Shown here: piece by piece, positions 439 through 36,900 of the stretch
Position numbering within the stretch: the stretch's first letter is position 1
How the letters are laid out: each line of letters starts with the position of its first letter
DNA from: Variovorax sp. UMC13
Lineage (GTDB): Bacteria; Pseudomonadota; Gammaproteobacteria; Burkholderiales; Burkholderiaceae_C
Length of the DNA stretch: 64,000 nt
Assembly: GCF_014170375.1 (NCBI RefSeq)
Contig: NZ_LZZW01000018.1
Coordinates: 124,001 to 188,000 of the forward strand
Reading direction: 5' to 3'
The notes under the pieces: generated by a model
Told to the model about the DNA's origin: nothing
Databases searched by the model: none
What the model saw: only the letters and a program-made list of their open reading frames with translations
Made by a program: the position numbers and the translations under genes

Positions 439-1113
439 TCAGGCATGCGAGGGGTGGCGCGGCGCGGCCGCGTAGGCGCGCCATGCGCCCTGCGGCGCGA
501 TGGGCTGGCAGCCCAGCAGGTCCATCACCGCCCGCAGCCAGGGCGGCTGCTCGCGCGTGCAGACCGTGATCGGGTGCGGCAGGTGCGAGCGCTGCGAGGC
601 CAGGTGGGCGAAGTGCGACGCGTACTCGGGCGGCCGTGCATCGGTGGCGAGCTCGGCGATGGCGAAGGGGTCGGGCGGAGCGGGCTGGGTGGTGTCGACC
701 AGCGGGATGTAGGGGGTGGAGGCGCTGCAGGTGCCGGCCATGCCGGGGCCGTCGAGCAGGAGGGCGCCGAGCACGAGCTCGGGTCGACCACCGGCGATGA
801 GCAGGGCGATGTAGGCGCCCAGGCCGCGGCCGCAGACGGTGGCGGGGCCGAGGTGTGCGAGGGCGATGTCGACGTCGCCCATGAGGACCTCGCAGCTGTA
901 GCCGCCGCCGGCGGGGATGGAGGATTGTCCGTGGCCGGTGAAGTCGAGGGCGTGGACGGCACCGGGCCAGCCCTCGTGGGTGAAGGCGGGGTGTGCGGCG
1001 TGGGACTCGCCCAGGCCGTGCAGCAGCAGCAGGGGGTGGGCGTCGGGCTGCGTGGCGGGGCGCAGCTGGTGCAGGGCCAGGCGGATGCGACCGTGCGCGA
1101 GGAACTCGGTCAT
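439..1113 (-). CDS. Alpha/beta-hydrolase fold protein lacking the nucleophile serine
   Basis: A 224-residue protein of the alpha/beta-hydrolase fold: LLLLHGLGES at residues 28-37 forms the oxyanion-hole loop and DFTGHGQSS follows at 58-66. The nucleophile elbow reads CGRGLGAY (94-101), so the expected GxSxG has glycine where the catalytic serine belongs. No convincing catalytic histidine is seen in the C-terminus. The start ATG overlaps the stop of the upstream hydrolase gene by four bases (ATGA), so the two are co-transcribed and probably translationally coupled. It may be a non-catalytic partner of the upstream hydrolase or a decaying paralogue. An upstream extension of the frame exists but reads through the neighbour and is not real. 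Confidence 0.75.
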   Translation of the reverse strand: MTEFLAHGRIRLALHQLRPATQPDAHPLLLLHGLGESHAAHPAFTHEGWPGAVHALDFTGHGQSSIPAGGGYSCEVLMGDVDIALAHLGPATVCGRGLGAYIALLIAGGRPELVLGALLLDGPGMAGTCSASTPYIPLVDTTQPAPPDPFAIAELATDARPPEYASHFAHLASQRSHLPHPITVCTREQPPWLRAVMDLLGCQPIAPQGAWRAYAAAPRHPSHA

Positions 1114-2471: not shown

Positions 2472-2759
2472 TCAGCCCGGTCGAACCTCGAAGTAGGCCT
2501 CGTCGGCGCCGCCCAGGTCCCGGAAGCCGGCCATCCTGGCCTTCTCGTAGGCCTTGGGCCAGGCGCTGGCCAGGGCGAGCTCGTCCGCCGACAGTTCGTC
2601 GGCGCCCGATTCCGAGGCGTTCATGTAGGCCTTCAGCACCTGGCCGAGGTCCTCGCCCAGGGCTTTCTCCAGGGCGATGCGGAAGCGTTTCTCGGCGGTG
2701 GCGATGCCTTCGGGCGGCAGGCCCGGAAATTCCCGGAGCCGGATGGTGGTTTCGATCAT
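2472..2759 (-). CDS. Conserved-looking small protein of unknown function (95 aa)
   Basis: Not recognised. The protein starts MIETTIRLREFPGLPPEG and is predicted soluble, mixed alpha-helical, with an acidic stretch NASESGADELSADELALAS in the middle. There is no signal peptide, membrane segment or known motif. The ATG overlaps the stop of the upstream 77-residue gene by four bases (ATGA at 2756-2759), which supports real, coupled expression. The longer frame upstream of this ATG is a shadow of that gene. Through the shared promoter region with the LexA-type box at 3016-3031, it may be part of the SOS response; that is inference. Confidence 0.6.
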   Translation of the reverse strand: MIETTIRLREFPGLPPEGIATAEKRFRIALEKALGEDLGQVLKAYMNASESGADELSADELALASAWPKAYEKARMAGFRDLGGADEAYFEVRPG

Positions 2760-2989
2760 GAGGGGTCCTTGGGTTGGAATCGGCGCGCGGCGTCGGCCGC
2801 CACGATCTCCACCGGCCCGATGCCGGCGTAGACGAGCTGGCCGCTGTCGCGCTCCACGATGCGCACCCGCTCGCCCCGGGTGCTCAGCACGTAGCATTCC
2901 GGCGCCAGGTCGAGCCGGATCTCCTCGGTCAGGGCCGGTCCGAGCCAGGACGGCAGCCGCAGCAGGGTGAGGTGGGGGCGATCGGTCAT
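2756..2989 (-). CDS. Small protein of unknown function, first gene of a LexA-box-linked pair (77 aa)
   Basis: Not recognised. The 77-residue product begins MTDRPHLTLLRLPSWL and contains CYVLSTRGERVRIVERD and a beta-rich middle, suggesting a small soluble beta/alpha protein. It has no export signal. The start ATG at 2989 lies 26 bases from a LexA-type box in the divergent promoter region, and its stop overlaps the start of the 95-residue gene. Gene order (two coupled small genes on one side of the box, one small gene on the other) suggests a compact regulated module. Toxin-antitoxin function was considered because of size and coupling, but no known toxin or antitoxin motif is visible. Confidence 0.6.
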   Translation of the reverse strand: MTDRPHLTLLRLPSWLGPALTEEIRLDLAPECYVLSTRGERVRIVERDSGQLVYAGIGPVEIVAADAARRFQPKDPS

Positions 2990-3015
2990 GCAGTGACAAT
3001 GAATTGTGAAATTGA

Positions 3016-3031
3016 CTGTATGAATATACAG
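3016..3031. promoter_or_regulatory. LexA-type SOS box
   Basis: CTGTATGAATATACAG has the CTG-N10-CAG architecture of the LexA box used in gamma- and betaproteobacteria, with 6-bp perfect arms CTGTAT/ATACAG and an AT-rich centre. A TTGACT -35-like hexamer (3012-3017) overlaps its left edge. The box lies 20 bases before the ATG of the plus-strand 61-residue gene and 26 bases from the start of the minus-strand pair, so one LexA dimer could control both directions. Confidence 0.7.
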
Positions 3032-3051
3032 CTTTTCGCTAAACTCACGCC

Positions 3052-3237
3052 ATGAATTCCATACCCGAAACCGAATGGATCGCGGCCTGCGCGCACCGGC
3101 TGCAGCGGCACTGGCGAAGCGTCGATCCCCTGGAACTGGAGGCGCTGGCCGCCGAGCTCGCGCACGACGAACGCCTGCGCGCGATGCTGCCGACCCTGGC
3201 GGCCGGCGAGTGGTTGAAGCCGATCGAGCAGGCCTGA
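3052..3237 (+). CDS. Small protein of unknown function beside a LexA box (61 aa)
   Basis: Not recognised. The product (MNSIPETEWIAACAHRLQRH...) is a short, probably all-helical acidic protein with no membrane segment. Support comes from its position: the ATG is 20 bases after a LexA-type box, and a hairpin follows its stop codon. Spacing to the box suggests a very short or absent 5' leader. It is divergent from the 77/95-residue pair and convergent with the enoyl-CoA hydratase gene. SOS control is an inference from the box. Confidence 0.55.
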   Translation: MNSIPETEWIAACAHRLQRHWRSVDPLELEALAAELAHDERLRAMLPTLAAGEWLKPIEQA

Positions 3238-35739: not shown

Positions 35740-36900
35740 ATGAAGTATCGGACGCGAACCTACTACACGGACGCCCAGAAGGCATTGATGTGGGAGCGCT
35801 GGAAGGAAGGCTGGACTCTGCATCAGGTCGGCCATCTGTTCGACCGACCTCACACCTCCATCCACACCATCCTGTCGAAGGCCGGTGGCATTCGACCAAC
35901 GGACCGGCGGCGCAGCGCGAAGGCGCTGACCCTGGCGGAGCGAGAAGAGATCTCTCGTGCTCTAGTGATCGGTTAATCGATGCGCTCGGTGGCCGCCCGA
36001 CTTGCCCGGGCACCGTCGACCACCAGCCGCGAGATCGGTCGCAACGCAGGGCAAGACTGCTATCGGGCGAGCGTCGCCGACGAAGCAGCCTGGAACCGTG
36101 CCCTGCGGCCGAAGCGCTGCAAACTGGTCATGAATCGAGCGCTGGCTGGCGTCGTGGCGGACCTGCTTCGAATGCGGTGGTCGCCGGAGCAGATCGGCGG
36201 TTGGCTCGAGCATACTTATCCGAACGACCCGGGCCTTCATGTGTCACACGAGACCATCTACCGCAGCCTGTTCATTCAAGCGCGTGGCGCGTTGAAGAAG
36301 GAACTGCTGGAGCATCTCAGACGCACACGCGGCATGCGACGCTCTCGTTCCTACACACAGAAGACGGCGATCCATGGGCAGATTGCTGATGCCGTGTCGA
36401 TCAGGGAGCGCCCTGCATCTGTCGAAGATCGGGCAGTGCCTGGCCATTGGGAGGGAGACTTGGTCTTCGGGAGCGGCAACAGCCAAATCGCCACGTTGGT
36501 CGAGCGACAGACGCGATACGTGATGCTGGTCAAACTCGAAGGCAAGGACTCGCAGTCGGTCGTCAACGCGTTGATCAAGAACGCACGCAAGTTGCCGCAG
36601 GAGCTCTACAAGTCATTGACTTGGGATCGAGGCACGGAGATGCACGGTCACAAGCGATTCACGATGGCCACCGACATCCAGGTCTACTTCTGTGATCCAC
36701 AGAGCCCCTGGCAACGCGGCAGCAACGAGAACACCAATGGGCTGCTGCGGCAATACATGCCGAAGGGCATCGACATCTCGGGCTACTCACAGCTCCAACT
36801 CAACGCGATCGCGCGACAATTGAACGAGAGGCCGCGCAAGACACTCGGCTTCCACACACCCGCTGAGATGTTCAGCGAATGTGTTGCGTCGACCGGTTGA
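35740..36900 (+). pseudogene. IS30-family transposase interrupted by an in-frame TAA
   Basis: The frame starts at ATG 35740 (MKYRTRTYYTDAQKALMWER, N-terminal HTH) and meets TAA at 35974-35976. The same frame then continues without shift through SMRSVAARLARAP to 36900. Without the stop it would be 386 residues, a normal IS30 length. The DDE core is intact: GHWEGDLVFG (first Asp), LTWDRGTEMHGH (second Asp) and WQRGSNENTNGLLRQYMPKG (Glu). The stop may derive from CAA by one C-to-T change, since glutamine is common at this place in related proteins (from memory). An internal ATG at 35980 could give an HTH-less fragment. The element is probably immobile unless helped in trans or by read-through. 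Confidence 0.85.

Follow-up and report, generated by a model that had tools for sequence, protein, structure and literature searches.

Between two divergent units of short genes in the window, by which we mean the whole 64-kb stretch of Variovorax DNA analysed here, lies a palindrome that resembles a LexA binding site. LexA represses its target genes until RecA triggers its cleavage after DNA damage. The locus raises the question of whether these genes belong to the SOS response and what they would add to it. A preliminary description had placed a LexA-consensus box less than 30 bases from both start codons, had recognised no SOS function in the three genes around it and had suggested that they could be new DNA-damage response genes.

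The box between the divergent genes

The pattern CTGT-N8-ACAG had a single match in the window, CTGTATGAATATACAG (Table 1). Shuffled windows contained 0.5 matches on average, so the bare pattern is weak evidence by itself. A LexA matrix of 20 positions was built on nine further sites in this genome, which are AT-rich and were hand-picked in front of repair-type genes. With this matrix, CTGTATGAATATACAG scored 27.7 bits, compared to a leave-one-out range of 21.0–35.2 bits for the nine training sites; the second-best place in the window reached 7.8 bits and the best over 20 simulated windows 16.3 bits. The specificity of the box thus comes from its flanks and core, which the matrix scores, and not from the bare pattern. 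Judged by its sequence, CTGTATGAATATACAG is a strong predicted LexA site that scores on par with the genome's own sites. It lies 20 bases from the ATG of the 61-aa gene and, on the other side, 26 bases from that of the 77-aa gene, which confirms the position first claimed for it, and the locus has the CTGT-N8-ACAG-type palindrome at the promoter that is looked for in a LexA regulon. Scans near the box for sigma-70-like promoters and for terminators found none, and a longer E. coli-like LexA consensus had no match in the window at up to 3 mismatches.

Table 1. Position and supporting analyses of the box and the three small genes (window coordinates).
Feature	Position	Strand	Notes
LexA box CTGTATGAATATACAG	3016..3031	none	between two divergent transcription units; pattern, matrix, conservation
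61-aa gene of the LexA-box-linked family	3052..3237	+	homologue searches, alignment, selection, predicted structure
77-aa gene, first of the divergent unit	2756..2989	-	family consensus end ..VVY.GIGPVE(I/V); codon model
95-aa gene, second of the divergent unit	2472..2759	-	codon model, selection, predicted fold

Two such boxes also stand upstream of the lexA gene of the same genome (Pfam LexA_DNA_bind). Genome-wide, the loose pattern TACTG-N10-CAG was not enriched (42 and 44 matches vs 87 and 77 in the reversed control), and a stricter palindromic pattern matched one site, which is unlike a LexA box. Sites were examined among the 86 loose-pattern matches, at eight loci first and at more later, and nine were kept for the matrix. 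Behind the genome's own LexA-type sites, Pfam recognised UmuC, an S24 (UmuD-type) protein, a radical SAM protein, a DnaE-type polymerase and a DEAD_2 helicase. In our reading, the radical SAM protein is SplB-like, the DnaE-type polymerase is dnaE2 and one further site precedes a UvrD-like gene; the protein that we read as imuB-like behind another site had no Pfam match. No 61-aa gene was found beside any of the nine matrix sites, and the whole genome has two 61-aa matches.

Further bidirectional LexA-box loci were seen in this genome on contigs C10 (~118.2 kb, L261), C23 (~94.6 kb, L262) and C13 (~51.7 kb, L263). At these, a different 79-aa protein (MDTD.GTGILD...) stands before SRAP in place of the 61-aa gene, and the opposite side of the box holds 113-, 121- and 82/83-aa genes on C10 and C23 and a 55-aa piece on C13. 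Three near-alike dnaE2-like genes, on C13 (L263), C1 (L264) and C23 (L266), each follow a LexA-type box. One of the three is DnaE-type by Pfam, and two of the loci have a divergent 134-aa gene, which is also found in a cassette on contig C31.

All three small genes were called by a codon model trained on the window's known genes. The stop of the 77-aa gene and the start of the 95-aa gene overlap as ATGA (2756–2759), so the two look like one operon. None of the three proteins passed a Pfam cut-off, matched an NCBIfam model or had a PHROGs match better than E = 0.22, which agrees with the earlier remark that they carry no recognisable SOS function. The model of the 61-aa protein is all-helical (mean pLDDT 88.3, pTM 0.70) and had no match in the PDB or BFVD at E up to 0.001; its best BFVD row was an unnamed viral protein (E = 0.32, TM 0.76), and its best VIA-align, among 12 chains, was a CUE domain (Z 4.2). 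The 95-aa model (mean pLDDT 87.5) had no match in the PDB at E up to 0.001, and the missing fold matches for these two models do not prove new folds. A sequence search against solved structures gave a single chance match (E = 3).

Two candidate assignments of the 61-aa protein were rejected. The DinI family matched neither this protein in Pfam (E limit 10) nor 53 family members (limit 0.01), and the polyketide dimerisation domain PKS_DE (PF18369) scored 23.5 bits, below its cut-off of 26.7, and was matched by 1 of the 53 members.

The 61-aa family and its neighbours

The 61-aa family was present in 27 of 61 genomes, all of them among the 37 of the window's genus and with up to four matches each; the 95-aa and 77-aa families were found in 19 and 15 of the 61, in one genus only. 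A profile search of 399 genomes from the taxonomic family detected the 61-aa family in 40, which represent 24 of 141 genera. Carriers could be named at 62 loci and were Variovorax, Pseudacidovorax, Hydrogenophaga, Pseudorhodoferax, Xenophilus and unclassified Comamonadaceae or Burkholderiales; the contig scan behind these loci used one short peptide pattern, so distant relatives can escape it. Among 399 genomes of the order, a clear match was obtained in the own genome only, together with four weak partial matches that had no box nearby. Two queries found no match among the isolated phages of INPHARED, and two Variovorax replicons were the plasmids with a 61-aa match. The family consensus reads WIAACAHRLQ..WRTVDP..LE..A.DLW.D.RLRAM.P..AA..WL.P, and W9, C13, A14, L17, W21, A33, P47, A50, L55 and P57 are invariant in 53 aligned members; the family as a whole fitted no Pfam model. 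The family may often be unannotated, and no description of it or of the cassette appeared in literature search listings or in the available parts of the papers. On the two replicons (NZ_LR594668.1, L315, 5001–5174, and NZ_CP138516.1), the PLSDB table, which is incomplete, holds no annotated gene under the match.

A box (CTG[TG]-N8-[AC]CAG, −130 to +30 of the start) was found near the start of 134 of 140 61-aa entries, compared to 10 of 540 control gene starts; as the entries share descent, the 134 boxes are not 134 independent events. The entries comprise 112 genomic ones, 27 further ones from viral contigs and the window; near-identical stretches were dropped, not all search matches were fetched, and the frameshifted L209 and one in L097 are counted twice each, so that the entries represent at most 138 genes. 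The controls were other predicted genes of the same loci, more than 700 bases from the 61-aa start, with overlapping loci kept. The distance from box to start peaks at 12 and at 20–22 bases. The box is missing from six entries, namely L105, at a contig edge, the fragments L152, L102 and one L098 match, and also L168 and L303; a matrix site of at least 12 bits was found in 135 of the 140. In the alignment, the box is kept while identity to the window protein falls to 44 per cent. The site is thus retained beside homologues in other genomes, as in a LexA regulon, and the failure that would have spoken against the original proposal, a box not conserved beside the gene, did not occur for the 61-aa gene.

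The proteins themselves are also conserved. The median dN/dS was 0.30 over 982 family pairs with dS of 0.15–0.9. Seven copies of a type found near tmRNA genes, four of which were scanned for tmRNA, had dN of 0.01–0.15 and dS of 0.27–2.8, with one saturated pair, and the 61-aa gene of the window compared with the copy in genome G005 gave a dN of 0.13 and a dS of 1.38. For the 95-aa gene, the window and Variovorax boronicumulans copies differed by a dN of 0.024 and a dS of 0.212. These values indicate maintained proteins under moderate to strong constraint.

Repair genes recur around the family. In 36 of 131 entries, an SRAP gene (YedK/HMCES type) lies no more than 1.2 kb downstream in the same orientation, a count taken apart from one cluster that mixes SRAP with other proteins, and DUF72 does so in 9; SRAP, DUF72, UmuD and UmuC were each checked with Pfam on one example. 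The SRAP start is at +184 or +185 in L066, L082, L096 and L169, and the SRAP or DUF72 start overlaps the end of longer 61-aa frames, which suggests coupled translation; outside the +184/+185 loci the distance is variable. Many SRAP genes, a protein found in 45 of the 61 genomes, stand without a 61-aa gene. Viewed from the SRAP side, at least 11 of 30 loci have a 61-aa match upstream, which is a lower bound because strands were often misassigned at those loci.

As side observations, DUF72 replaces SRAP right after the 61-aa gene, with its start at +184, in L070, L077, L078, L102 (where the 61-aa gene is a fragment) and L173, and the own genome has seven SRAP (PF02586) matches, two of which are adjoining pieces.

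On the divergent side, 116 entries had enough sequence. The commonest neighbour, in 55, was a family with a GIE...QxWWCR-like end, followed by the 77-aa family (30), the 95-aa family (22), a 91–113-aa family (14), dnaE2 (5), umuD (3) and imuA (1); at least one of six of these was present in 84. In a few loci the divergent neighbours are umuD-umuC, dnaE2 or imuA-imuB-dnaE2. The 77-aa and 95-aa pair stands opposite the 61-aa gene in 12 of the 116 (the window included, and one frameshifted locus twice). Of the three-gene arrangement that was to be sought in related genomes, the box beside the 61-aa gene is kept in most entries and the divergent pair is limited to these few. Paralogues of the 95-aa gene on contigs C11 and C16 of the own genome have no AT-rich box in the stretches examined, so the 95-aa family is not tied to LexA. 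For the 61-aa gene, the boxes and the repair neighbours support the original suggestion, and as far as sequence can tell they make a new gene of the DNA-damage response very probable here; for the 77-aa and 95-aa genes the case is weaker.

Prophages and the copy in the window

A scan of IMG/VR yielded 34 contigs with the 61-aa gene, 33 of them with the box. In 29 of the 34 the gene lies within 4 kb of a contig end, where the ends are predicted boundaries and one contig is only 9.9 kb long. By neighbour clusters, 26 of the 34 viral loci contain an endolysin, an integrase, a P2-type terminase, one tail protein or several of these, and the cluster representatives were named endolysin, terminase, tail and integrase by PHROGs. 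Typically, tail and lysis genes come first, followed by the divergent small genes, the box, the 61-aa gene and SRAP, and in six loci by an integrase. P2-type carriers depart from this order and have the cassette beyond the terminase and portal genes, a place where P2 and 186 hold accessory genes such as tum.

Chromosomal copies point the same way in part. A paralogue on contig C31 of the own genome, 68 per cent identical to the window protein, adjoins a Dus gene and a phage integrase (Pfam) and lies beside a long run of phage tail or structural genes and lysis genes (lysozyme by Pfam). A tmRNA gene, a classic integration site, lies 0.6–0.8 kb (L085, L086 and L191) or 3.4 kb (L089) from the 61-aa copy in all four such loci scanned. 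Among the 74 non-viral entries, narrow phage hallmarks were near 11; with a broader set, 19 had at least one hallmark and 10 at least two. Many relatives, though not all, are thus carried near a prophage end beside lysis or integrase genes, in the manner of prophage morons. Moron-like genes are described at the right end of VarioGold, a mitomycin-induced Variovorax phage, in the available part of its report, whose text does not contain the words SOS and LexA (PMC9658991). Spread of the 61-aa family by prophages is well supported by these gene contexts. Downstream of the 61-aa gene in L085, L086, L089 and L191, which come from several Variovorax genomes, we also read a methyltransferase-like gene.

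The copy in the window does not lie in a recognisable prophage. Our reading of the predicted genes found no phage genes in the 19 kb on the left of the copy or anywhere in the window, and none of nine genes near it had a structural, lysis or integration PHROG. The C31 cassette has SRAP beside its box and a first divergent gene, and the window copy has neither. The same cassette, about 92 per cent identical, occurs in V. boronicumulans Xaverov 112, where the 61-aa gene is frameshifted. The window copy resembles a pared-down, orphaned form of its fuller paralogue in the C31 dusA prophage; we infer a prophage origin for it, and it may be on its way out.

Two other features were noted in the surroundings. 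Alpha/beta-hydrolase-like genes at window positions 439–1113 and at 992–1738 of L307, about 17 kb apart on contig C18, have a long nearly identical stretch in common, and a transposase piece (PHROG 4646), IS30-like in our reading, lies at 36460–36900 of the window.

Possible roles of the 61-aa protein

We propose, with a probability of roughly 0.8, that the locus is an SOS accessory cassette which LexA controls and prophages spread, represented in the window by a small bidirectional unit; box and conservation make it very likely that this unit is under LexA control and belongs to a new small-protein family. In the undamaged cell, LexA would occupy the shared box and block both promoters, and DNA damage, through RecA-triggered cleavage of LexA, would release transcription on both sides. 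The 61-aa gene would be the constant, box-linked part of a Comamonadaceae prophage cassette that is carried near prophage ends, typically between lysis genes and integrase/att. Its cargo would vary, with SRAP/YedK or DUF72 downstream and small genes, umuDC, dnaE2 or imuAB-dnaE2 opposite, and the window copy would be an orphaned remnant that has retained three genes and the switch.

For the 61-aa protein itself, the most likely role is in the damage response, as a small helical protein that assists or modulates repair and translesion synthesis. As there is no significant fold match, its role has to be argued from its neighbours, SRAP and the translesion polymerases. According to the available parts of the sources, SRAP forms protein-DNA cross-links at abasic sites (PMC9436759) and stands beside umuDC, imuAB-dnaE2 and dinB under SOS control (Aravind 2013, PMC3765255). 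The same partners adjoin some 61-aa genes, and the text of the latter account, as far as it was available, names no partner of about 60 aa and uses 'small protein' 0 times; the window copy differs from these SRAP/YedK-HMCES neighbourhoods in having no SRAP. A role as a repair or translesion accessory is a tentative assignment. Equally tentatively, we suggest for the 61-aa protein the part of a novel SOS effector or regulator, working with SRAP abasic-site shielding and translesion polymerases and carried in a portable bidirectional switch. Comamonadaceae prophages would spread this switch and its flanks would be exchanged like cargo, and hosts would keep orphan copies, which would extend their own damage response.

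A direct action on the SOS response, as a co-repressor or as a protein that binds RecA, LexA or UmuD, is rather unlikely. The 61-aa gene stays constant at a shared bidirectional box while the cargo changes, umuD is its divergent neighbour in 3 of 116 entries, and the DdrR protein of Acinetobacter offers a precedent (PMC7273328, seen in part), which is by analogy the closest model for a modulator. In the available text, DdrR is likewise a small, one-genus protein encoded divergently from an SOS gene with a shared palindrome, and the Acinetobacter location CP9 brings together an SRAP gene and umuC (PMC7273328). In that system, however, UmuDAb replaces LexA, whereas the 61-aa family is mobile and multi-copy, and the likeness is one of description. 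Moreover, because the own genome has two 61-aa matches only, its other LexA sites (lexA, the dnaE2 copies, umuDC) work without an adjacent 61-aa gene.

Unlikely, too, is that the protein is a LexA-controlled prophage antirepressor like 186 Tum or Gifsy-1 GfoA, in which case damage would lift LexA, the protein would bind the phage repressor, the prophage would be induced and the chromosomal copies would be leftovers. The relatives in viral contigs are indeed small prophage genes linked to a LexA box, first behind it and near prophage ends, and small LexA-controlled antirepressors outside the immunity region are known. The 186 tum and Gifsy gfoA/dinI operons, in the available part of their description (PMC3121763), likewise lie in prophages away from the immunity region and begin with small genes under a LexA box. 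Pfam recognised nothing, not even S24, in the ORF of the C31 prophage that we read as repressor-like, and 21 of 33 virus records (possibly fragments; L291 left out) have no S24 match. However, the other 12 of the 33 and the prophage in genome G019 contain an S24 protein, which speaks against this role because a self-cleaving repressor would need no antirepressor. The S24 records thus point both ways. The 61-aa sequence is also alike across P2-type and other phages, a low dN is kept in the tmRNA-locus-type copies, and some copies adjoin umuDC and dnaE2. Compared to the tum and Gifsy operons, to which they are likened by description, the 61-aa cassettes have other hosts and cargo, S24 in some carriers and chromosomal copies under selection.

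It is quite improbable that the protein halts cell division after damage. SulA, SidA and YneA are small LexA-controlled division inhibitors of other bacteria, and small LexA-controlled orphan proteins of such kind are the precedent for this reading; the helices of the 61-aa model, however, are unlike a membrane segment in our reading, and the recurring neighbours that can be named are repair genes, not division genes. A chance palindrome beside ordinary genes, finally, is rejected as having next to no likelihood, since the bare pattern expected 0.5 times per window and the loose pattern not enriched in the genome are outweighed by the matrix score (27.7 bits vs at most 16.3 in simulation) and by the box in 134 of 140 entries.

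Prophage-borne, LexA-controlled SOS operons are a kind already known, and what is new is this small-protein family variant. One earlier case resembles the 61-aa gene by description only: hypA, a hypothetical gene with a predicted LexA site in beta-Proteobacteria with several chromosomes, from an analysis that took in Variovorax paradoxus (PMC3323433, available in part).

The SOS regulon of these soil bacteria thus appears to include a mobile layer of short genes that have no family model and are boxed almost throughout. If the 61-aa protein is an antirepressor, it would show how the prophages of these bacteria listen to LexA; if it acts with SRAP or translesion polymerases, it would give a handle on abasic-site shielding and on mutation under stress.
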